28,705 nt of DNA, taken from positions 1 through 28,705 of the IMG/VR virus record IMGVR_UViG_3300035145_001961. One strand, given 5' to 3'. This stretch comes from a virus. Under the pieces are notes generated by a model. That model did no database searches. It was given only the letters and a program-made list of their open reading frames with translations, and was not told the DNA's origin. The position numbers were made by a program, and so were the translations under genes. Of this stretch, positions 3,001-26,088 are shown in pieces (position 1 is the first letter of the stretch; every line of letters starts with the position of its first letter).

Positions 3001-3224
3001 GAAGGTAAATCTAAAACACCGTCAGGGTGTTGAGAATAACTTGCGATAGTAGTATAGACTGTATTGCAATTAACTGCATTTACCGGATCATCTGAACCTA
3101 CTCGATAATAGTAAGTTATTGGACCAACTGACGTAGGAAGTTGATCTGCATCACCCTGTGCTAAACTTAAACCGTCGTGAGGCTTATAATAAAGTTGTAT
3201 ACTCTTTGTATGAATTGGTGGCAT
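1..3224 (-). CDS. Giant repeat-containing tail-fibre/adhesin-like protein (3' end outside window)
   Basis: The frame is open from an ATG at 3224 to the left edge, giving at least 1074 residues without a stop. An in-frame TAA at 3245-3243 fixes the start; the protein begins MPPIHTKSIQLYYKPHDG. I recognise no named family. Five diverged segments share an anchor of the form S/T-x-x-E/Q-I/L followed by I-P/K-L/I-Y (for example TFEEIMLNQIPLY), spaced 119-141 residues. Many cysteines and aromatic residues occur in between, as in modular beta-sandwich adhesins. There is no signal peptide or membrane segment. It lies last in the baseplate series, behind a candidate promoter and a 54-nt gap. Position, size and repeats suggest a peripheral baseplate or receptor-binding fibre protein, which is inference. 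The C-terminal receptor-binding end, if any, is not visible. Confidence 0.8.
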   Translation of the reverse strand, partial: MPPIHTKSIQLYYKPHDGLSLAQGDADQLPTSVGPITYYYRVGSDDPVNAVNCNTVYTTIASYSQHPDGVLDLPSPLDADLGPGGAGCSNPRWSIAQIAPLGIKLYFDNQLQNEAAPGKYSANPFPVTNFDPADNEDSIVYSYNPPTSVVLHNTNYIWETYTYTDFNGNEVNELQTRLISPVNPVLVNFTGTAGQIYRKWTTSNTPCNFSQPALPLSGVSYFPTEEVPAGATLNEIAAGGIPLMDSNGDILPATDPIQGFAYYATQGFPSSQNDVTIYNIESFVNDYTVNWQASICTQVVASNETVREFTVKYANTIEVAGEGVDSQDNLFCSSGNSLRIFYTNNNVEYTSIGELMEAQEPIYITPFSIPNEIVPEYWQLVDAPDGAYGIDDNRYFVYLKEDPDPNAGFFGSGFSDPGFYTFGIFTLYSIASPTNNSGIYCAIEGLSLFQVRTIDLFYANSQQAYCDINLSNQANSLVTCQYLNPFGQEDLTFEEIMLNQIPLYVDSLSAGAYYGIDDLLFTSGYFGDELGFYYNFNSNIAEEGGNPWRGREFVTISDSYSSPFICTGNETTVRFFSNLIYISPWPQAFPDYDFSNEFCYRQKQSYSNVYYRLHADLLDFTLDEIVQHDIPLYTSLSNLAAPNGQTLKTNAYSDDTSYYYKWIANEDGTGGHWIGLNSSQTESQAFIANSIQCNIQPVPNYFDALNDNTLTENSGANYLLAFYVFSSCIPVNGQYTHYILFGEHTNQPDNNTSYMSEFTDEIGFNSSFYSFESTDLNYGCKKYVGKIFASSPAQAEELMSSQLDYFQGDIQFVNPGTIGILSEKVIYYHIGGCDDCLNSTVGQPGIPYSFPKFDDGNQAEELAPRFGLEQNYNLHNNSKPLLRTNPRLTGNIKLVTDSRGEIYLESINANKDLSDSRYKRYGVSPESDYSYDVSRFFNDNKTPYDMVYETKRRASDLSVLESYDLQFEEDYQYGTRFNNSKLYDENFRIFAPIQIDTNIPKTFVIYRVNSPKPNVNYGDLGADKQDRIKSMLANATIIKTFDLSESSKLGKYIRRHVYNEFFQDSQLTVSFEKN
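1326..2945 (-). repeat. Five diverged protein-level repeats in the giant fibre gene
   Basis: Anchor motifs begin at 2945 (SIAQIAPLGIKLY), 2531 (TLNEIAAGGIPL), 2174 (SIGELMEAQEPIY), 1751 (TFEEIMLNQIPLY) and 1364 (TLDEIVQHDIPLY). All are in the same reading frame, with spacings of 138, 119, 141 and 129 codons. Several units also carry cysteines in the stretch before the anchor. The DNA is not detectably repetitive, so the duplications are old or under protein-level selection. Confidence 0.6.
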
Positions 3225-3245: not shown

Positions 3246-3267
3246 ATATACTAATCTCCTAGTATAT
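3246..3267. repeat. 8-bp inverted repeat in the 54-nt gap
   Basis: ATATACTA at 3246-3253 is the exact reverse complement of TAGTATAT at 3260-3267, separated by 6 nt. It overlaps the candidate promoter element just upstream of the giant fibre gene. It is AT-rich and lacks a U-tract, so it is a poor intrinsic terminator; an mRNA hairpin, a processing site or chance are all possible. Confidence 0.45.
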
Positions 3268-3270
3268 ATC
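3262..3270 (-). promoter_or_regulatory. Candidate late-promoter element GATATATAC before the giant fibre gene
   Basis: On the minus strand GATATATAC occupies 3270-3262, 37 nt upstream of the ATG at 3224. The same core occurs in the other three intergenic gaps of 37 nt or longer in this window. It resembles an extended -10 type phage late promoter (the T4 example is TATAAATA), but no -35 element is evident. Function is inferred from recurrence and position only. Confidence 0.45.
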
Positions 3271-12777: not shown

Positions 12778-13046
12778 TATCGTATTCTAGTATCGTCTTT
12801 TTTAATGGTATAATTTTTATACCCCTGTAAATTCTTTATAGAACCTATTACTTTATAAAAATAGTCATTTAAAAATAGTATAAAAGTTTGCATTAAATCG
12901 TTTCGTTGAATATGACCGGATAGACTATTATTAAGCAAGTTATCTCTATAATCATGGCCTAAATTAAGTCTATTGTCTTTTCTAGACTTTTTATAGTCAT
13001 ATAACTTTACAAGTCTATATTTAAATAAGTCTTGAAATAAATTCAT
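12777..13046 (-). CDS. Small basic protein between gp6-like and gp7-like genes
   Basis: This 89-residue protein is of unknown family, rich in Lys, Arg, Asn, Tyr and Phe, and begins MNLFQDLFKYRLVKLYDYKK. It is coupled on both sides: its ATG overlaps the stop of the gp6-like gene by 4 nt (ATGA) and its stop overlaps the gp7-like start by 1 nt (TAATG). Its basic composition contrasts with the acidic neighbours. The coupling argues that it is a real, co-expressed gene. A small wedge subunit, an assembly factor or a chaperone for the large gp7-like partner are possible, but nothing in the sequence decides between them. There is no signal peptide and no clear membrane segment. Confidence 0.6.
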   Translation of the reverse strand: MNLFQDLFKYRLVKLYDYKKSRKDNRLNLGHDYRDNLLNNSLSGHIQRNDLMQTFILFLNDYFYKVIGSIKNLQGYKNYTIKKDDTRIR

Positions 13047-14884
13047 GATGATCTTCTAACTATTGATTTTCTATCGCCCGCTTGAAGCCTAGTATAAATT
13101 GTTCTTGGTACGGGAATCTCATCGAATGTAACCGTTAGTGCAGCATCTTCATTAATAGAAGGAATGTCTTTAACAAGTTGACCGTCTCTATCTAACCAAC
13201 CGCCTCTAAATACAGCGACCTCTTCTTTTTCCATAATAATGTCGCCATATTCGTCTAATCCTGCAACATCGGCCGGAATAGAATCGCCAACACTAATATT
13301 AACTAATTCAGTCTCTTGAACTTTTTTAAAGAAAACAAATTTTTGTTTACCATTGCCTATGTCTTCCAAGACAACAGGCTGTTGAGGCACAACTTTAGTA
13401 GTTATAGATTCATAATAACCTAGTCTTCTAGCTTCCTCTTCTGTTTTAGAAACAAATGTGACATTAACTGCATCAACACCTTCAACTTCTTCTAGTATAT
13501 AGATAATATCTGACTTTGGTAATTTATCTCTTCTAGTCACATTTAATAAGTAATTAGACACAACATCTCTTATATCATTAAAAATATCTTCCTTTCTAAA
13601 ACCTTCGAAATATCTAACAGAGATATCCATAGAATAATATCTAGCTTTAGGCTCAACGAACTTAACTTCTGTCGTAACCATTTGTTGACCAGATTCTTGT
13701 AAAACTCCAGCCATAGCGCTATATTCATTAGCATCGAAGAACATTTCATTTATAGGTAATGAAAAATAATCTAAGTTCTTAGCCAATTTTCGTTTAACAT
13801 CTGGAATTGCAAATATGTAAATGACATTATCGTCGTCGATATATTGGTCATCAACCGTGTTATATGCGTCAATGTAAGAGAAAATACCGTATCTGCCTAA
13901 GAAATACTCATAATGATCTGGAGTTGCTAAGACAAAGCTCTTAGACGCCATTGGAGCGATTAATTTGGTAAATTCGGTTGATTCTCTATCGCCGCCCATT
14001 TTAGGAGATGAGGTAACGCTAGCTTGTAAGAACTTATTTAAGTCATATGAATTTCCAAGAGCATCTGATCCTTCATCGACCCATTTAAAGGTTAGATCTG
14101 AAGCATCGTCTAAGTTACCCATAACTCCGTCATGTTTAATATATTCTATTTCAATAGAAGAACCGGAAACTGGCATCATACCAAAATTACCATTGCCAAA
14201 ATAAACATCTAAGCCTCCGCCGATACCCGTTTTAATAATATAACCCTTATCAGAAGGTAACATTTCATATAAAGAATTAAACTTGGTCCACAATTCGCCA
14301 TTAACCGATACTGAAACCAAATTGTGGTCCGTTAGGCCTCCAGTTTGGATATTAAACGATTGTAACTTTTCACCAGTTCCAGTCACCGTTTGAGACTCTA
14401 TTTCGCCTTGTATAATAGAACAAGTAAATGTGCTACTGTCAGATTTTTCTATTCTAAATTGATCTTTGCTAGTTCTAAGCATATAGTTTAATCCATTAGC
14501 ATCAAACTTTATTTTAGTATTTGCTGGTATATTAATAGCATCTCCTATAACTTTACTTAGATCTACACCGGCAGCCCATCTAAATGTAATCTCTCCAAAG
14601 GCCGCAAACCCTCTAGTTGGATCATGACCCGCAAGTCTAGATAGTCCGTAAATAGATTCAGGTTGTTGAGCTGTGTAAATATTTTGCTCAACGGTCGCAT
14701 CTTCAACATAGAACATTAACATTTCACCAATCTCTGACATAACCTCAAGTATTTGAGAGAAAGGAGATGCCGAAGTCAAGAGAGTCCCAGCTCTATTATA
14801 AACTCTACTTATGTAGGTTTTAGCGTCTGTTACTATGTCTTGAGCGACAGTTCTAGTTGTATTTAAAAATTTAAAATCGGCCAT
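13043..14884 (-). CDS. Baseplate wedge protein, gp6/gpJ-like
   Basis: This 613-residue protein is close in length to T4 gp6 (660). In contractile tails gp6/gpJ proteins form the ring that holds the wedges together and changes shape when the sheath contracts. The N-terminus (SPFSQILEVMSEIGEMLMFY near 40-59) and the region around NIYTAQQPESIYGLSRLAGH fit the baseplate-J pattern. Near the C-terminal half there is a characteristic segment, MDISVRYFEGFRKEDIFNDI, followed by KLPKSDIIYILEEVEGVDAV, typical of the gp6/J C-terminal domains. It directly follows the gp25-like gene, the usual gp25-gp6 order in contractile phages. The ATG is preceded by an AT-rich leader and the gene ends in a 4-nt overlap with the 89-aa gene. 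Confidence 0.85.
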   Translation of the reverse strand: MADFKFLNTTRTVAQDIVTDAKTYISRVYNRAGTLLTSASPFSQILEVMSEIGEMLMFYVEDATVEQNIYTAQQPESIYGLSRLAGHDPTRGFAAFGEITFRWAAGVDLSKVIGDAINIPANTKIKFDANGLNYMLRTSKDQFRIEKSDSSTFTCSIIQGEIESQTVTGTGEKLQSFNIQTGGLTDHNLVSVSVNGELWTKFNSLYEMLPSDKGYIIKTGIGGGLDVYFGNGNFGMMPVSGSSIEIEYIKHDGVMGNLDDASDLTFKWVDEGSDALGNSYDLNKFLQASVTSSPKMGGDRESTEFTKLIAPMASKSFVLATPDHYEYFLGRYGIFSYIDAYNTVDDQYIDDDNVIYIFAIPDVKRKLAKNLDYFSLPINEMFFDANEYSAMAGVLQESGQQMVTTEVKFVEPKARYYSMDISVRYFEGFRKEDIFNDIRDVVSNYLLNVTRRDKLPKSDIIYILEEVEGVDAVNVTFVSKTEEEARRLGYYESITTKVVPQQPVVLEDIGNGKQKFVFFKKVQETELVNISVGDSIPADVAGLDEYGDIIMEKEEVAVFRGGWLDRDGQLVKDIPSINEDAALTVTFDEIPVPRTIYTRLQAGDRKSIVRRSS

Positions 14885-14897
14885 TATATGGGTTCAT

Positions 14898-15254
14898 TTA
14901 ATTAATATAGACTTGTACTAAGTATCTTGAGTCAATTGTTATATCAATATATGCAATATCTCTAACAGTACCTCTAGCGAAAGAGACTTCCGCCGATACT
15001 TTATACTTTTTTGCAAGTGGACAATAAAGTCCTATTTGCTCGTCTATTGTAGATTTTATTTGTAAGTTATTATAGTTTAATGAATACACTAAATCCTCTA
15101 AATTACATCCAAAATTAGGGTTAGCTAACACCTCTCCTTTGTTTGTAAATAAGACAGTTTCGATCTGAGTTATAAGCTGAGCAATCTCACTACTGCTATG
15201 TACTTTAGTCTGATCAAAGTTAGGGTCGCCTACTGTCTTGATATAGAGTTCCAT
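14898..15254 (-). CDS. Baseplate wedge protein gp25-like
   Basis: At 118 residues this matches the usual length of gp25/gpW-family proteins (T4 gp25 is 132). The family sits at the inner wedge and contacts the sheath, where it helps initiate sheath assembly. The core reads SSEIAQLITQIETVLFTNKG, then EVLANPNFGCNLEDLVYSLN, which fits the family pattern of a helix, a Pro/Phe/Gly turn and an LxxLVY-type helix. The last strands (ARGTVRDIAYIDITIDSRYL) form the C-terminal beta unit. In the canonical EPR position I read ANPNF, so the family Glu-Pro-Arg triad is not obviously preserved. The gene is 29 nt after the connector-like gene and 13 nt before the gp6-like gene. Confidence 0.85.
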   Translation of the reverse strand: MELYIKTVGDPNFDQTKVHSSSEIAQLITQIETVLFTNKGEVLANPNFGCNLEDLVYSLNYNNLQIKSTIDEQIGLYCPLAKKYKVSAEVSFARGTVRDIAYIDITIDSRYLVQVYIN

Positions 15255-15283: not shown

Positions 15284-16126
15284 TTATGAATGCATCATCC
15301 AATCGACACCTTCATCTCCTTTTATTTCTTCTATGACAGCTGCAAGCTCTTCATCTCCCATAGATTTTATTTCAGAGTAGTCAAACTCTACATTACCAGG
15401 TAACGCAAATTTAAAAATGCCTAATTTAGAACCTAAAGAAATCTTAACTTTAGCAGCGACATATCTAAAGAATATCTCATCAGAATAGAGCGCACAATTA
15501 GGAATAGTCTCATAAACTTCAAGTATAACATCTCCTTTAGGAGTGTCTCCCATAAACTTAAGCTCACCTGTCAACTGTGAGAAATGGAACGAAATCGGGT
15601 TCTCCATGATTTGTCTAGATAGATCCACCATAGATTGGTTAATTACATAGTATTGTAACTCTTCTGCACCTCTAGCAGCTCCATCTCCATCGTACACATT
15701 TCTAAATAACATTCTCTCTAATGCAAAGTCAGAGCCGCTTTCGAATCTTAAGTCTAAGCCTCCGCCTGGTTGATTCCAACCGCTTGCTAAGTCATAAAGA
15801 CCATAAACAGAGAACACCATGCCAGAACCATCACTTGCGGCCTGTGGTAAATGCAAAGCTCTATGAGCTTTAAAGTAGTCAGTACTAAATACACTATTAG
15901 GAATGTGATAATAGTTTTCCTTAACAGAATATTCATAATTCTTATAGAACCATTTAACAGCTCTTTTTATAATATTTAATACTTCTTTTTTAGGAAGATT
16001 AACGGGAATCATACATGCTCCCGTAAGTTCATCTGCGATCTCATCTAAAAATAGATCTTGACAATCTTCACCAAAACTTTTTGGAGTATTTAAGCCGCTT
16101 TCATTACCGCTTCTGATTTCACTCAT
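15284..16126 (-). CDS. Probable virion structural protein, neck/connector-like
   Basis: This 280-residue protein has an N-terminal motif with LPKKEVLNIIKRAVKWFYKN followed by an aromatic stretch. It ends with FFRYVAAKVKISLGSKLGIF, LPGNVEFDYSEIKSMGDEEL and an acidic helix. This layout recalls a group of T4-like marine-phage structural proteins, possibly neck or adaptor subunits: short helices bearing WF, a beta core, then a helix ending near an LPGG- or LPGN-type loop and an E-rich tail. I could not match a named family by sight, and its position between the amidoligase-like and gp25-like genes would equally allow a wedge-associated protein. It begins 1 nt after the stop of the amidoligase-like gene, so the two are probably co-transcribed. 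Confidence 0.6.
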   Translation of the reverse strand: MSEIRSGNESGLNTPKSFGEDCQDLFLDEIADELTGACMIPVNLPKKEVLNIIKRAVKWFYKNYEYSVKENYYHIPNSVFSTDYFKAHRALHLPQAASDGSGMVFSVYGLYDLASGWNQPGGGLDLRFESGSDFALERMLFRNVYDGDGAARGAEELQYYVINQSMVDLSRQIMENPISFHFSQLTGELKFMGDTPKGDVILEVYETIPNCALYSDEIFFRYVAAKVKISLGSKLGIFKFALPGNVEFDYSEIKSMGDEELAAVIEEIKGDEGVDWMMHS

Positions 16127-16127
16127 C

Positions 16128-17441
16128 TTATGATTTTATTTTTTTAGTAACTACAACTTCTACGTCATCTTCAAACCTAGAATCTCTAGTTATCATGCCT
16201 TCTCTAAATATACCGCCTTTCATTTTACCTTTAAATATACCATCTCTGCCAAAAACAAAACTATTAATAATAGTACAGCTACCATGTACAAAACATGATT
16301 CTACTTTAGACTCTTTTACTTCTGTGCCCTGATATAGATTACACCTTTTTAACATAGATCCTTCAACTTTACAACCAAATAAGTCGCTTTTTTCTATATT
16401 ACCTCTAATTTCGCAATCTACAAAGTCATAACCTTCCAATTGAAAACAAGTTGGAAATTTACCATCTTTAACCTGAATATGAGAAATATCACTATCATAA
16501 TTAACAATCCCCTCTGTCATACCCCCCTTAGTTATTAGATCCATAACTCTATGTTTCATACGATCCCAATACATATCTATAGTCTCACCGTGATCGTTAA
16601 GATCTACTAGAATTTCTATCTTAGGCCAATTCTTATTTACGTTTCTAAAGTCTCTTAAAGATAATGCAACTGGCTCGTTTTTATGTAGAATTCTACGAAG
16701 CTCTAATTTGTTTTCTTCTGTAAAATTAGAATTATTACAAGATTTCCAAATAGTCATAATAAATGATTCCCAAAGATAGAAGATATCGTCTTGTCTTTGT
16801 TCGTAATTCTTTCCACCTAAATACCTGAACTCCAAATAATTCTTTAACTTCTTTTCAAAATTAATTCCGTAATATTTGGTGTTTGGAAAATCATAGTTAT
16901 GAATAGAAGTGTTGACCGAATCATAGTGGAATGCATCAACCTTTGGCATAATCCATTTTATACTTTTAGCATAAACTGAATTTTCTCTATCAGGAAATAG
17001 ATTGTAAACTTGTTTCTCATTGAAGTCCAAGATAAACTTAAGAGTGTTCATCTTAGATATCATGTTCTTATCTTCTAAATAGTCTTTATCAAACGATAAG
17101 TTAAGGTGAATACCCGATCTATCCGTTGTATAACCATTTTCTCTGATCCAACCTAACACCTTAATCATCATAATTCTGGCGTTTCTATAAGGCATAGCTC
17201 CGGTAACCAGCTCCATTAATCCTTTACCACCTGACATATCAGGTTCAATCTTAAATTCTTTATCAGTTGGTTCAAAATCAGAGTGAGCTTTATCTTCTAT
17301 ACTAATAGAACGGTCTAAAAGATCCTCCAATTGCTTGGTAGTTTCTTTTAGGCCCAATTTGGAATAAAACTCGAACTCTACTCCACATAGTGAAGCATTA
17401 AGTATCTCTGCTCTATTAGAATTTTTATGAAGTTTGTTCAT
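16128..17441 (-). CDS. Amidoligase-like enzyme with C-terminal beta-helix-like domain
   Basis: This 437-residue protein has the motif pattern of the glutamine-synthetase-fold amidoligases (Pfam Amidoligase_2 type), which make amide bonds between carboxylates and amines using ATP. Visible motifs are GVEFEFY (20-26), FKIEPDMSGGKGLMELVTG (63-81), SGIHLNLSF (109-117) and YLEFRYLGG (202-210). These supply the Glu, Asp, His and Arg residues expected around the metal and nucleotide site. Residues about 325-425 are a run of short strands with Cys, Ser and Phe at regular spacing, resembling a pentapeptide or beta-helix stack. A candidate promoter lies 24 nt upstream, and the next gene starts 1 nt downstream. 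The substrate is unknown: modification of a virion protein, the cell wall or a small molecule are all possible. Assignment is by motif reading only. Confidence 0.7.
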   Translation of the reverse strand: MNKLHKNSNRAEILNASLCGVEFEFYSKLGLKETTKQLEDLLDRSISIEDKAHSDFEPTDKEFKIEPDMSGGKGLMELVTGAMPYRNARIMMIKVLGWIRENGYTTDRSGIHLNLSFDKDYLEDKNMISKMNTLKFILDFNEKQVYNLFPDRENSVYAKSIKWIMPKVDAFHYDSVNTSIHNYDFPNTKYYGINFEKKLKNYLEFRYLGGKNYEQRQDDIFYLWESFIMTIWKSCNNSNFTEENKLELRRILHKNEPVALSLRDFRNVNKNWPKIEILVDLNDHGETIDMYWDRMKHRVMDLITKGGMTEGIVNYDSDISHIQVKDGKFPTCFQLEGYDFVDCEIRGNIEKSDLFGCKVEGSMLKRCNLYQGTEVKESKVESCFVHGSCTIINSFVFGRDGIFKGKMKGGIFREGMITRDSRFEDDVEVVVTKKIKS

Positions 17442-17465: not shown

Positions 17466-17474
17466 GTATATATC
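17466..17474 (-). promoter_or_regulatory. Candidate late-promoter element GATATATAC before the amidoligase-like gene
   Basis: GATATATAC reads 17474-17466 on the minus strand, 24 nt upstream of the ATG at 17441, in a 53-nt gap. A second partial copy, GATATATC, lies at 17456-17449, only 7 nt before the start and probably too close to act as a promoter. The same core occurs in the other three long gaps. Confidence 0.5.
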
Positions 17475-17487
17475 AATCTCACTATGA

Positions 17488-17502
17488 CATCATATTATGA
17501 TG
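17488..17502. repeat. Short dyad at the end of the S1-like gene
   Basis: CATCATA at 17488-17494 and TATGATG at 17496-17502 are reverse complements with a single base between them. The dyad spans the stop codon of the S1-like gene. The one-base spacer makes a protein-binding dyad more plausible than a stable hairpin, and no U-tract follows. It may be chance in AT-rich DNA. Confidence 0.3.
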
Positions 17503-18793
17503 GTAACTTTAAAAACACTTTTCTAGTTTCTGGATCTATTCTAGTTACTTGAACCGTAATATTATCTCCGTTCTTAAATACTTTGATTAGATCTTCTCCT
17601 ACTTCACTAATGTGAAGTAAACCAACAACACCTTCTTCAAGAGTTACAAAGATTCCATAATCTTTAACCGCTTTTACTTTAGCGTCAACTGTACTAGGAA
17701 CTTTGTATCTTTCAAGTATATTGATCCATGGATTGGTTTCCTCAAGTGTCTTTTGAGTCAAAGTAATCTTAGTATTAGATACAATCTCTTTGACCAAGAA
17801 CTCAATCTCTTCACCTGGTTTAATGCTTTGTGACTTATGTCTCTTAAAGGTTTCTTCATCTAAGTCATTAACATGAATCATACCTGTTAGACAAGTATTA
17901 AACTCACAGAAGACACCATATTTTGCGGTACCCGTGACAGTACCTGTAATTCTATCAGTAATATTCTCGCGAAGCTTTGAAATCTCAACAGGAATCATAG
18001 CTTGTAGGTACTTTCTGTGTGAAACAACAATTGTACCTCTATCCTGTGAGAATGAAACGGGAACAACATATAGTTCTTGGCCAACAATAGATTCAAAATC
18101 ATGTAACTTATTAATACCAGCAAGAGAACCTGGCATAAAGCAATCTACACCTTGTACATTAACAACATATCCTCCAGCAGAAATCATTTCCTTAACAACA
18201 CCGGTCCATGCAGTATCTGCCGAATCTATACCTTCTCTTAGATCCATAAAGATACGTTGACGCATACCCCCGGATATAGTTCCTATGATATTGTTTCTTT
18301 CGTCATCATTAGATCCTTCAGTTATAAGAACTGATACTTCTTCTCCAGGTCTGACGTCTCTATATTGAGGATCCTCTTTAGAAAGCTTAACAAAGACAAG
18401 TTGACGATAGTTTACATCAACAGTTGCGTGCGTTTCATTAATACCATAAATTTTACCATCATAAATAACTCCAACTTTTAATTTAGGAATGAATTCAGAT
18501 TCTTTTTCTCTGTTAGTCAAAATATCATAAAACTCTTGAGCATATGACTCTCTAGAAAATACTTTATCCGTACCTTCTACTTTAACATGTGGATTAGATG
18601 TTCTAAGAGTTTTTGGACAATCAGCAGCATATCCATCCCAATCAAACTCGCCATTATCTAGAGTCCAGCGATCTCTCTCGTTTTCGATCTTTACTTCTGT
18701 TTGTTCTTGTTGAGTCGTTGACTCCGGTTGGGTTACTTCAACCTCCTCGATGGCCTTTTTATTGATTCTAGGCCTTGATTTTTTTTGTGACAT
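17495..18793 (-). CDS. Phage-encoded ribosomal-protein-S1-like RNA-binding protein (four S1 repeats)
   Basis: Four OB-fold S1 repeats are readable in this 432-residue protein: about 104-175, 194-262, 279-349 and 365-431. The last two carry clear S1 signatures, GTVTGTAKYGVFCEFNTCLT with GMIHVNDL, and AKVKAVKDYGIFVTLEEGVV with GLLHISEV. The first 40 residues are Lys-, Gln- and Glu-rich and look disordered; 42-60 (RWTLDNGEFDWDGYAADCP) precedes a linker. Bacterial S1 usually has about six repeats (E. coli 557 aa), so this is a shorter relative. S1 proteins bind A/U-rich single-stranded RNA and help mRNA engage the 30S subunit; this protein may act in translation or RNA stability during infection. 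It sits between hub and wedge genes behind its own candidate promoter. A different S1-domain RNA-binding role cannot be excluded. Confidence 0.9.
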   Translation of the reverse strand: MSQKKSRPRINKKAIEEVEVTQPESTTQQEQTEVKIENERDRWTLDNGEFDWDGYAADCPKTLRTSNPHVKVEGTDKVFSRESYAQEFYDILTNREKESEFIPKLKVGVIYDGKIYGINETHATVDVNYRQLVFVKLSKEDPQYRDVRPGEEVSVLITEGSNDDERNNIIGTISGGMRQRIFMDLREGIDSADTAWTGVVKEMISAGGYVVNVQGVDCFMPGSLAGINKLHDFESIVGQELYVVPVSFSQDRGTIVVSHRKYLQAMIPVEISKLRENITDRITGTVTGTAKYGVFCEFNTCLTGMIHVNDLDEETFKRHKSQSIKPGEEIEFLVKEIVSNTKITLTQKTLEETNPWINILERYKVPSTVDAKVKAVKDYGIFVTLEEGVVGLLHISEVGEDLIKVFKNGDNITVQVTRIDPETRKVFLKLPS

Positions 18794-18819: not shown

Positions 18820-18828
18820 TTATATATC
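18820..18828 (-). promoter_or_regulatory. Candidate late-promoter element GATATATAA before the S1-like gene
   Basis: GATATATAA reads 18828-18820 on the minus strand, 26 nt upstream of the ATG at 18793, inside the 37-nt gap. It differs from the other three copies only in the last base. The leader after it is A/T-rich with no Shine-Dalgarno close to the start. Confidence 0.45.
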
Positions 18829-18830
18829 TA

Positions 18831-19553
18831 TTAAACTGTGATTCCTTTCCACGAAATGGGTGTAGGTATTAAAACCGGGCCAGCCGGTACTAATCCAATA
18901 TAAATTCCGCTAACACTAGCTAAGTGGTCTTCAAATCCCTTAATTATATCATCTAGCATTTTAGAAAGTGCAATATTAAAATCTCTTTCATTATCATACT
19001 TTGAAAAAGCATCTTTAAACCCCTTAGCAATAGGCTTTGGATTCCCAGGAAATAAGACTAAAACACCAGGAGCCGGTGCAGTATATGGTGGAGTTAAAGG
19101 CATAGGAACGGGTAAAAAAGACCCTGGTACAAGGGCAGTTGCCCAATAAGCTACGACCGCTGCACCAATTGGTAACATTAACGGTACCGACGGCTTTGGT
19201 CCTTTATCAGAATGCATAACTTTTAAAACTCCAAGAATAGCCAAAAATATAGCTTCTTTTGCTGTATTCATAGCGCCATTATAAATAGCTGGATTTATAG
19301 GCCTAGGAATACCTCCTACTTGTTGGATAGAAGTCCCTATTGCCAAGTGGTATTCATCAGTTATTTTTCTAGCCAACTTTCTTAGTTCTTTATCAGTATC
19401 TAAAACTTCAATAGTTTTTTCTGGATCTTGAGGATCTGGAATTTCTGTCATATCAGACACTGGCATATCTTCAGCTGGAATAACTCCGCTTGCGCTACCG
19501 TTCTTATTTTGAAAGAACGTCGTCATATTTGTTTTAAATAACTCGAAACTCAT
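18831..19553 (-). CDS. Unknown protein with proline-rich hydrophobic centre
   Basis: This 240-residue protein is of unrecognised family. Residues about 20-50 are Pro/Asp/Glu-rich and probably disordered. About 54-110 is helical (ELRKLARKITDEYHLAIGTS). About 121-170 is strongly hydrophobic and proline-rich, with LMLPIGAAVVAYWATALVPG and then repeated Pro-x-Pro. A helical segment follows, and the end is hydrophobic and Pro-rich (IYIGLVPAGPVLIPTPISWK). The two hydrophobic stretches could be membrane-contacting or could pack in a beta-rich baseplate part. There is no signal peptide. Its ATG overlaps the previous stop by 1 nt (TAATG), and its location right after the spike and before the S1-like gene suggests a central baseplate or cell-envelope-penetration role. 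Nothing seen is decisive. Confidence 0.65.
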   Translation of the reverse strand: MSFELFKTNMTTFFQNKNGSASGVIPAEDMPVSDMTEIPDPQDPEKTIEVLDTDKELRKLARKITDEYHLAIGTSIQQVGGIPRPINPAIYNGAMNTAKEAIFLAILGVLKVMHSDKGPKPSVPLMLPIGAAVVAYWATALVPGSFLPVPMPLTPPYTAPAPGVLVLFPGNPKPIAKGFKDAFSKYDNERDFNIALSKMLDDIIKGFEDHLASVSGIYIGLVPAGPVLIPTPISWKGITV

Positions 19554-20362
19554 TATAATATGCTTTGAACATTAAACTCTTTTTGATAATCTTCTAATAG
19601 TCTAAAATATGTTTTAATTACGGTCTTATTAGAGAACTCTTCTATATTATATTTAACTATCGTTCCGCGTTCGACTAAATCGTCTAGATCCTGTATTCGA
19701 CTAGTCATTATCTCTTCTCTAGCAGTCGCATCACTTGGAAGATCTCCTGATTTTTCAACGTTATATGTTATTCCTTCTGGAGAAGTTTCAGTTGCCATAA
19801 CCTGATTGCCATGCAAGAGTATTTCTTCTTCGTATTCTTCTCCTACAATTTTTTTACCGTATACATAAATTACAGAATCAGTAATATGTAATTTACATCT
19901 ATTTTCTAGTCTTTCAAAATTAAAAGTTACTTGATTATTTGACCCTGATTTTCTAATAGGTCTTTTAGTGGGATCTATATGTTCTAAAAGTCTTTCATAC
20001 AGCGGTCGGTCACCCTTAAAGCCTGCAATTACTTTCTCAATAATTATATTATCATCAAATTGACCAGGTGTTACATCATATACTAGCTGTTCTATCGTCT
20101 TTTTTCTACCTGAAAAAATAAAATTTAACTCGTAAGCAGAATTTTCTGCGTCTTTGTTTTCAAAATGGCCTCTTAGTTTTTCTTTAAATTCAGAAAAATC
20201 ATGTTCACCTGCAAATTTAAATGTTTTACCACCGGCTTTTAAATCTCTACTTAATAAATCTTGACATGCGTCTATTAGTCTTTCAGAAATAACTCGCCTA
20301 CGATCTTCACTATTTAAGACATAATTTTCGCCGTATTGATTAGTTAATTGTTCAAGTGTCAT
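19553..20362 (-). CDS. Unknown baseplate-cluster protein
   Basis: This 269-residue protein is of unrecognised family, acidic and probably mainly mixed alpha/beta. The N-terminus is helical (SEDRRRVISERLIDACQDLL). The centre contains YELNFIFSGRKKTIEQLVYD and the C-terminal part is strongly charged, ending KTYFRLLEDYQKEFNVQSIL. No signal peptide, membrane span or catalytic motif is visible. It starts 6 nt after the gp5-like spike gene and overlaps the hydrophobic 240-aa gene by one base, so the three are almost certainly one unit. The location suggests a hub-associated or assembly protein. I cannot match it to a named T4 component. Confidence 0.65.
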   Translation of the reverse strand: MTLEQLTNQYGENYVLNSEDRRRVISERLIDACQDLLSRDLKAGGKTFKFAGEHDFSEFKEKLRGHFENKDAENSAYELNFIFSGRKKTIEQLVYDVTPGQFDDNIIIEKVIAGFKGDRPLYERLLEHIDPTKRPIRKSGSNNQVTFNFERLENRCKLHITDSVIYVYGKKIVGEEYEEEILLHGNQVMATETSPEGITYNVEKSGDLPSDATAREEIMTSRIQDLDDLVERGTIVKYNIEEFSNKTVIKTYFRLLEDYQKEFNVQSIL

Positions 20363-20368
20363 TGCCTA

Positions 20369-21064
20369 TCATTTTTGCTGGATAAAACCAGGGCCTGCAT
20401 TACTATTTATCTGTGTTTGCAAGTTAATCATAGCTGGTAATTGAGGAGGCAAAGGAGGACCTGAAGGACCTACGCCCGTTGGATGAGTGTGACCATTGAA
20501 TTGAGTTATAATCTCTGCCAATAAATCAGCTAAAGTTTGACCTTTGACTGCAGGTTCAGCAGTGTCGGTTCCGTCTGTAGCGATGTATATTTTATCAGAA
20601 TTAATGAATATCTCACCTTCTGGAGAGAATCTAATCATGGGCTGATCCGTTTGAGAATCTCCGGTAGTCATGACTAAGCCATCTTCTGGAGACCAATAAA
20701 TTCTCACGTTTCTTTCAGCATCATACACTAAGGATATAACGTCATATGGTCTCTCGCTATTCTGAAGTACGTCTGTTTTTAAGTCAGCGTTTTGATTAAC
20801 TTGAAATAAATATTCAGGGTGGTAGATATCGCCATTATCAAATCTAATACCAACAATATCGCCTACTCTTGGTACTACATGATGACCGGGTGTCATTCTA
20901 TTCATTGGAGAAGCCCACGGAATAGCTTCAACCGGAATGGTATCAAACTTACCAAATACTTTAACTTTACATCGACCGTTTGATAGTGGATCTTGATTGT
21001 CCACTACTTCTCCTAACCAATGTGTATCTCTAATATTATCATTTATAAGCTCAGCCTGTTTCAT
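20369..21064 (-). CDS. Baseplate spike protein, gp5/gpV-like OB-fold, no lysozyme domain
   Basis: This 231-residue protein starts with an OB-fold module (about 14-91), with WLGEVVDNQDPLSNGRCKVK, a VEAIPWASPM segment and VPRVGDIVGIRFDNGDIYHP. This arrangement is characteristic of phage central-spike and baseplate assembly protein V proteins. Residues about 115-165 are short strands as in a brief beta-helix. The C-terminus carries NGHTHPTG (191-198) followed by Gly/Pro-rich sequence; His-x-His spike tips in P2-like and related phages bind iron. T4 gp5 (575 aa) also has a lysozyme domain, which is absent here, so this is the minimal spike form. The start overlaps the stop of the tube gene by 4 nt (ATGA). 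Confidence 0.85.
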   Translation of the reverse strand: MKQAELINDNIRDTHWLGEVVDNQDPLSNGRCKVKVFGKFDTIPVEAIPWASPMNRMTPGHHVVPRVGDIVGIRFDNGDIYHPEYLFQVNQNADLKTDVLQNSERPYDVISLVYDAERNVRIYWSPEDGLVMTTGDSQTDQPMIRFSPEGEIFINSDKIYIATDGTDTAEPAVKGQTLADLLAEIITQFNGHTHPTGVGPSGPPLPPQLPAMINLQTQINSNAGPGFIQQK

Positions 21065-26079: not shown

Positions 26080-26088
26080 GTATATATC
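26080..26088 (-). promoter_or_regulatory. Candidate late-promoter element GATATATAC before the hub block
   Basis: GATATATAC reads 26088-26080 on the minus strand, 19 nt upstream of the ATG at 26060 in a 63-nt gap. Upstream there is no evident -35 element. It is one of four near-identical copies, each in one of the four longest gaps of the window. Confidence 0.5.

Follow-up and report, generated by a model that had tools for sequence, protein, structure and literature searches.

A bS1-like protein fixed among the baseplate genes of an aquatic phage clade and its predicted place on the host ribosome

The stretch of viral DNA that we analysed (the window; 28,705 nt, positions 1 to 28,705 of IMG/VR record IMGVR_UViG_3300035145_001961) encodes a protein akin to the first four domains (D1-D4) of bS1, the bacterial protein that loads mRNA onto the ribosome, and its gene is fixed, in constant baseplate synteny, in an abundant aquatic phage clade. 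We hold it fairly probable, judging from sequence and structural models, that this phage S1 binds the 30S subunit of its host, docking at the uS2/bS21 site, and selects A-rich phage mRNAs. The protein is a phage-lineage relative of bS1 cut to the ribosome-anchoring domains (D1-D2) and the first mRNA-binding domains. Contact with the 30S at that site would be made by the N-terminal helix and Arg130. Docked on uS2, the phage S1 would displace host bS1 from a fraction of the ribosomes, and D3-D4 would keep the A-rich, Shine-Dalgarno-less phage leaders close to the start codon. Phage late mRNAs would be favoured in this way, presumably late in infection. Redirection of the host ribosome to phage mRNAs had been suggested in an earlier note on this DNA, and the anatomy agrees with that prediction: the order of D1-D4, the docking elements (a uS2 helix and a basic residue at the Lys43 position), the F-x-W motif of Bacteroidia, the fixation of the gene, the lack of Shine-Dalgarno sequences and the presence of bS21, all of them, like the loss of D5-D6, read from sequence or models.

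Genes of this kind are known. S1 in huge phages was reported by Al-Shayeb et al. (2020, PMC7162821), who proposed steering of host initiation and linked it with missing Shine-Dalgarno sequences, and UniProt already names similar proteins '30S ribosomal protein S1'. What is new here is the Bacteroidia signature and the pairing of bS1 with bS21; these, together with the D1-D4 cut and the fixation in the baseplate cluster, are worth following.

The phage S1 gene and its likeness to bS1

The gene starts with ATG and occupies positions 17495..18793 on the minus strand, encoding a 432-aa protein whose four S1 OB folds correspond one to one with D1-D4 of bS1. Its span and length were right in the earlier note, and the strand is here corrected to minus (read on the plus strand, 17495-18793 contains many stops); the remaining window genes lie on the minus strand as well, so that the S1 gene indeed shares its strand with the baseplate genes. 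The four S1 repeats reported from the sequence were also recovered, three of them as stretches above threshold in the Pfam S1 match (2e-25). The fourth, D2 (residues 194-258), was missed by the Pfam S1 search, yet it aligns with D2 of bS1, and AlphaFold models it as an OB fold (strands 196-204, 208-213, 216-221, 240-249 and 254-258). In the AlphaFold model as a whole (mean pLDDT 75), the repeats are S1 OB folds, with strands spanning residues 110-172, 196-258, 282-346 and 367-429. On the minus strand, D1 corresponds to 18278..18475 (codons 107-172) and contains Arg130 (codon 18404-18406), D2 to 18020..18214 (codons 194-258) with the aromatic pair Tyr209/Phe219, and the S1 domains D3 and D4 to 17753..17953 (codons 281-347) and 17504..17698 (codons 366-430). 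D2 is the best conserved domain, with 28/65 positions invariant (CFMPGSLAGINKLHDFES) in an alignment of 28 phage sequences; its conservation exceeds that of the RNA-binding D4. In every full-length clade member the protein stops after D4, with D5-D6 missing. The phage S1 is under purifying selection, dN/dS against its nearest relatives being ~0.05-0.06.

Residues 20-346 of E. coli bS1 align in order with phage residues 107-430 (2e-46; 1e-54 with the family profile), and when bacterial bS1s from the sampled phyla are aligned to the phage profile, D1-D4 keep one common register throughout. Among NCBIfam models, 30S ribosomal protein S1 scored best (1.9e-50), the PNPase model reaching 2.7e-16 and that of RNase R 1.6e-11, and the best match to a nuclease model falls on the S1 domain of such models. 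The phage protein has only S1 folds, with no catalytic domain attached, and we rejected a nuclease or PNPase-type protein (PNPase, RNase R, RNase E) on the grounds of these model scores and folds. The RNA polymerase or nuclease complex that the earlier note had offered as alternative targets likewise found no positive support, with ribosomal models outscoring PNPase and RNase R. By fold, the AlphaFold model was closest to E. coli bS1 chains in 30S complexes. Superpositions over long chains gave a high rmsd (9guv: Z 14.3, rmsd 14.5 over 324 residues), probably from hinging between the modelled domains, and the two-domain match to 9guq (model residues 86-264 on bS1 3-174; Z 13.5, rmsd 4.9) is therefore more telling.

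With the bS1 (rpsA product) of Bacteroidia, the phage S1 has in common the order of D1-D4, a Lys or Arg at the uS2-pocket position, and an F-x-W motif after a variable N-terminus. It differs in having four domains instead of six, in its identity of ~25-29%, in forming a separate clade, and in scoring under the NCBI equivalog cut-off (best 171.8 bits vs 524; TIGR00717, 146.5 vs 577). A D1-D4 protein can serve a cell: E. coli with a chromosomal rpsA reduced to D1-D4 is viable, with slow growth and cold sensitivity, while D1-D3 make up the minimal core and a protein without D1-D2 no longer binds the 30S (PMC3858243).

The low score could point instead to an RNA chaperone working off the ribosome, which would coat, protect or unwind transcripts or couple to RNA polymerase while host bS1 is kept. 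S1 domains generally bind RNA, host bS1 aids phage RNA enzymes away from the ribosome (T4 RegB and Qbeta, cited in PMC13157829), and Al-Shayeb et al. left open whether the protein acts 'on or off the ribosome' (PMC7162821). Against this, free S1-domain regulators and nucleases match far more weakly than ribosomal S1 models, the domains that dock in E. coli, D1-D2, are retained, D2 being the most conserved, and neither the Bacteroidia motif nor a bS21 partner would be expected of a generic RNA chaperone. We regard such a role as unlikely.

N-terminal elements and phage lineage

The N-terminus had been described as long and disordered. This holds for residues 1-33 (pLDDT <50), but residues 47-93 carry two conserved elements. 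The first is the F-x-W motif NGEFDWDGYAADCP (18614..18655, minus strand; codons 47-60; FDWDGYE), common to Bacteroidia bS1s, whose F50 and W52 are invariant in 28/28 aligned phage sequences. In the second, FSRESYAQEFYD, E82, Y84 and A85 are invariant across the same number of sequences. The segment FSRESYAQEFYDILT (18515..18559, minus strand; codons 79-93) is modelled by AlphaFold as a helix over residues 85-93 and superposes on the N-terminal helix with which E. coli bS1 docks on uS2; the second aromatic of this docking helix is variable.

In bS1, the N-terminal helix stacks on uS2, and Lys43 enters the uS2 zinc pocket (PMC10123108). The Lys43 position is taken by Arg130 in the phage S1, with Arg in 16/16 clade sequences, as compared with Lys in 6/7 other phage S1s and in 51/51 aligned bacterial sequences. 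The position of E. coli Phe130 holds an invariant Phe (phage Phe219) and that of Phe120 a Tyr (phage Tyr209), whereas the docking residues Phe79 and Lys117 of E. coli bS1 are not retained. The loss of these two residues, the variable second aromatic and a score far under the cut-off for true S1 proteins would argue against docking on the ribosome.

Examining bacterial bS1s revealed how the motif, in the form F-[D/N]-W, is distributed. It occurred in 67/68 Bacteroidia bS1s of the first group read, a Bacteroidota sample picked by similarity to the phage protein that could thus favour the motif, and we therefore added a draw across the phylum made without the motif. In this independent draw, the motif was present in the bS1 of 18 genomes and absent in the rest. 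It was absent in 16/16 genomes of a Verrucomicrobiota-like draw and present in 1/14 'other' sequences, from a MAG contig that bears a Chlorobiota label and resembles Flavobacteriia in sequence. In a tree built with the motif excluded, the motif-bearing bS1s form one clade (100/100), and outside the S1s of the window clade and Lak the motif is confined to this Bacteroidia clade. The S1 of Lak, a Prevotella phage, carries it as FNWTPYEDG. The motif in phage S1s could be inherited or convergent, and in Bacteroidia bS1 it is a lead in its own right. Bacteroidia, in which it occurs, have ribosomes that ignore Shine-Dalgarno sequences. In addition to rpsA, one Bacteroidota genome carries another S1-like gene (G065:C1:2232926-2233975).

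The S1s of the window clade, of other huge phages (LR756500-LR756504, LR745206) and of Lak form one clade (23 rows, 100/100), with very long branches between it and every bacterial bS1; the long branches of Lak and LR756500 leave the inner order of this clade unsure. The phage S1s did not fall among unrelated S1-domain nucleases or PNPase and RNase E types, the placement that would have spoken against a ribosomal kinship. Since they form a single clade far from bacterial bS1, they represent an old viral lineage and not a recent pick-up, and we rejected a recent transfer from the host for the one long-branched clade that they make up. In AU tests, grouping the phage S1s with Bacteroidia (p-AU 0.10) or with all Bacteroidota (p-AU 0.36) was not rejected in either case.

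Within this lineage, LR756500 has its S1 gene in the same synteny as the window clade, while S1 and baseplate genes are dispersed in LR745206-type phages. The window clade combines fixation in the baseplate cluster, F-x-W and Arg at the Lys43 position; the S1s of LR756500 and of the LR745206 type lack F-x-W. The Microcystis jumbo phage PhiMa05/MaAM05 (PMC13157829) likewise carries an S1. Unlike that of the window, the PhiMa05 bS1 branches among bacterial bS1s and adjoins bL21/bL27 genes, and for these two reasons it represents a separate acquisition from a host.

Leaders, bS21 and translation

Shine-Dalgarno words occur at 4.9% of ATG starts in the phage clade, as compared with 5.0% in shuffled sequence (n = 307 in relatives and 22 in the window; the first in-frame start per ORF was taken, ATG only, so that some starts may be wrong). 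With the same script, the values were 5.4 vs 5.8 shuffled in Bacteroidota and 38.5 vs 13.5 in other bacteria. The phage leaders are 51% A. D4 of bS1 has been placed near mRNA positions -12 to -15, where the leaders of Bacteroidetes are A-rich (PMC6847099). Bacteroidia ribosomes hide the anti-Shine-Dalgarno tail in a pocket of bS21, bS18 and bS6, in which Tyr54 of bS21 is key (PMC9976891), and in E. coli bS21 bridges D1 of bS1 to the 30S (PMC10123108); this bridge and the D4 placement may not hold for Bacteroidia ribosomes.

The Pfam Ribosomal_S21 family matched 10/14 long clade records, including one whose S1 is 96% identical to that of the window. The gene for bS21 was present in 10/10 records that extend far enough, at a distance of 17-29 kb upstream of S1; the four records with no match reach only 6-23 kb upstream. 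This pattern suggests that the window phage also encodes bS21, at a locus beyond the window end. All five bS21 proteins read have Tyr54 or an equivalent residue. A search of 12 clade records for bS18, which likewise belongs to the pocket in Bacteroidia, found none. In the relatives, bS21 belongs to a conserved run of genes (DnaJ-like, small ORF, bS21, small ORF, PhoH-like), the small ORFs being ~86-94 aa. Among deposited huge or Lak phages having S1, bS21 occurs in 4/6, with no match in LR756500 and Lak.

The bS21 phages of Bacteroidetes described by Chen et al. (2022, PMC9723584) resemble the window clade in predicted host group, aquatic origin, myovirus type and a bS21 with Tyr54; their bS21 is thought to act late in infection. 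Their complete genomes reportedly hold no other ribosomal protein genes, to which the window clade adds bS1, and the location of bS21 between DnaJ-like and PhoH-like genes sets the window clade apart from them.

The absence of D5-D6 in all full-length members could also be read in terms of host shut-off, by which the phage S1 would dock like bS1 and, lacking these domains, block or weaken host translation instead of promoting that of the phage. The slow, cold-sensitive growth of E. coli cells having only D1-D4 fits this (PMC3858243), as does the drop of in vitro translation to ~5% when viral bS21 was placed in E. coli ribosomes (PMC6375957). However, Shine-Dalgarno sequences are missing from phage and host mRNAs alike, so that simply blocking translation would harm the phage as well. 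Strong selection has, moreover, preserved D3-D4, and the genes around S1 are late structural ones, for which the phage requires abundant translation. We thus consider shut-off improbable.

The fixation of S1 among the baseplate genes and the presence in the relatives of bS21, its neighbour on the ribosome, together suggest that these phages refit the mRNA-docking site of the host to favour their own messages. A more specific version, which we put forward only tentatively and rate below even chances, is that bS1 (D1-D4) and bS21 make up a matched kit for the mRNA-docking platform of Bacteroidia: Tyr54 of bS21 would lock the anti-Shine-Dalgarno tail, and the phage bS1, anchored through F-x-W and the uS2 helix, would be the mRNA selector. 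If this is true, such phages would build themselves a specialised ribosome in hosts that do without Shine-Dalgarno pairing, which would show that phages are able to replace two touching ribosomal proteins at once. In Bacteroidota, where start codons are chosen without such pairing, bS1 is the suspected reader of A-rich leaders; D1-D4, the Bacteroidia-only motif and bS21 would mark the parts that matter for this choice, and the phage S1 would offer a natural minimal test protein.

Baseplate synteny, spread and a promoter-like octamer

The neighbours of S1 are a contractile-tail baseplate set that includes neck proteins; the baseplate cluster named in the earlier note is thus borne out by a gp25-like protein, a gp6-like wedge protein and a Phage_base_V hub. 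All lie on the minus strand. The hub or injector OB protein (Phage_base_V; 20369..21064) is upstream of S1 in the relatives covering that stretch, and two genes of 240 and 269 aa with no family match (18831-20362) separate it from S1. These two genes are found in only 13/68 relatives, with other sequence at that spot elsewhere. Downstream of S1 is a gene (16128..17441) for a glutamine-synthetase-fold (amidoligase-like) domain with a beta-helix tail, constant in 67/68 loci. Residues 8-255 of its predicted structure are glutamine-synthetase-like, of amidoligase type (Z ~10-11, 10-16% identity), and on this model the product could modify a protein. It is followed by a neck or head-tail adaptor protein (Ad2-like; 15284..16126), a gp25-like wedge protein (14898..15254) and a gp6/J-like wedge subunit (13043..14884). 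A PHROGs search returned no useful family for the S1 protein, and a tRNA search of the window found none.

Searching IMG/VR proteins with S1 gave 68 loci (46-97% identity) with unbroken gene order. The gp6-like neighbour served as the query for testing the absence of S1 in the clade and gave 80 loci. S1 was present in 69/69 newly fetched loci covering its place and absent in none, 8 being without coverage. By their baseplate genes, the nearest deposited phages are LR756500, other huge phages, Lak (Prevotella), Tenacibaculum pT24/PTm1, Flavobacterium MaF61 and Chryseobacterium MA9V phages. Because the cultured relatives of these genes infect Bacteroidota, the hosts are most likely Bacteroidota, and the window phage, a large one, probably infects this phylum. 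A search for S1 in phages pT24 and MaF61 gave no match.

A position inside the baseplate cluster that is fixed in all relatives might suggest that the protein is part of the virion or associated with the baseplate, whether as a structural component or one injected along with the DNA, and that its S1 folds serve assembly or early delivery. Baseplates commonly contain OB folds, and packaging in the virion has been raised for phage bS21 (PMC9723584). The OB folds of the phage S1 are, however, specifically bS1-like, with docking elements, and not baseplate-like; other huge phages have S1 far from the baseplate genes (in LR756501, S1 is at 684 kb and the gp6-like gene at 575 kb); and S1 has a promoter-like motif of its own. 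A virion role therefore seems very improbable to us.

This motif, the octamer GATATATA, lies at 18821..18828 on the minus strand, 27 nt before the S1 ATG. The earlier note had proposed that S1 has its own promoter; a promoter-like element is indeed there, but it is not a sigma-70 site, a scan for sigma-70 promoters giving no signal (22 sites vs 26.8 in shuffles). Further copies on the minus strand (3263-3270, 17467-17474 and 26081-26088) precede the genes starting at 3224, 17441 and 26060. Within the window alone, the octamer is not above chance (5 vs 3.3 expected). Across 16 relatives, 67 copies are on the coding strand as compared with 2 on the other, 49/67 are no more than 90 nt away from an ORF start, and the S1 leader holds the octamer in 21/25 relatives. 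Judging from this distribution, GATATATA likely marks a phage promoter class, which we infer to be the late class. As it also precedes the 26060, 17441 and 3224 genes, S1 probably has its own start, driven by a promoter class common with structural genes.
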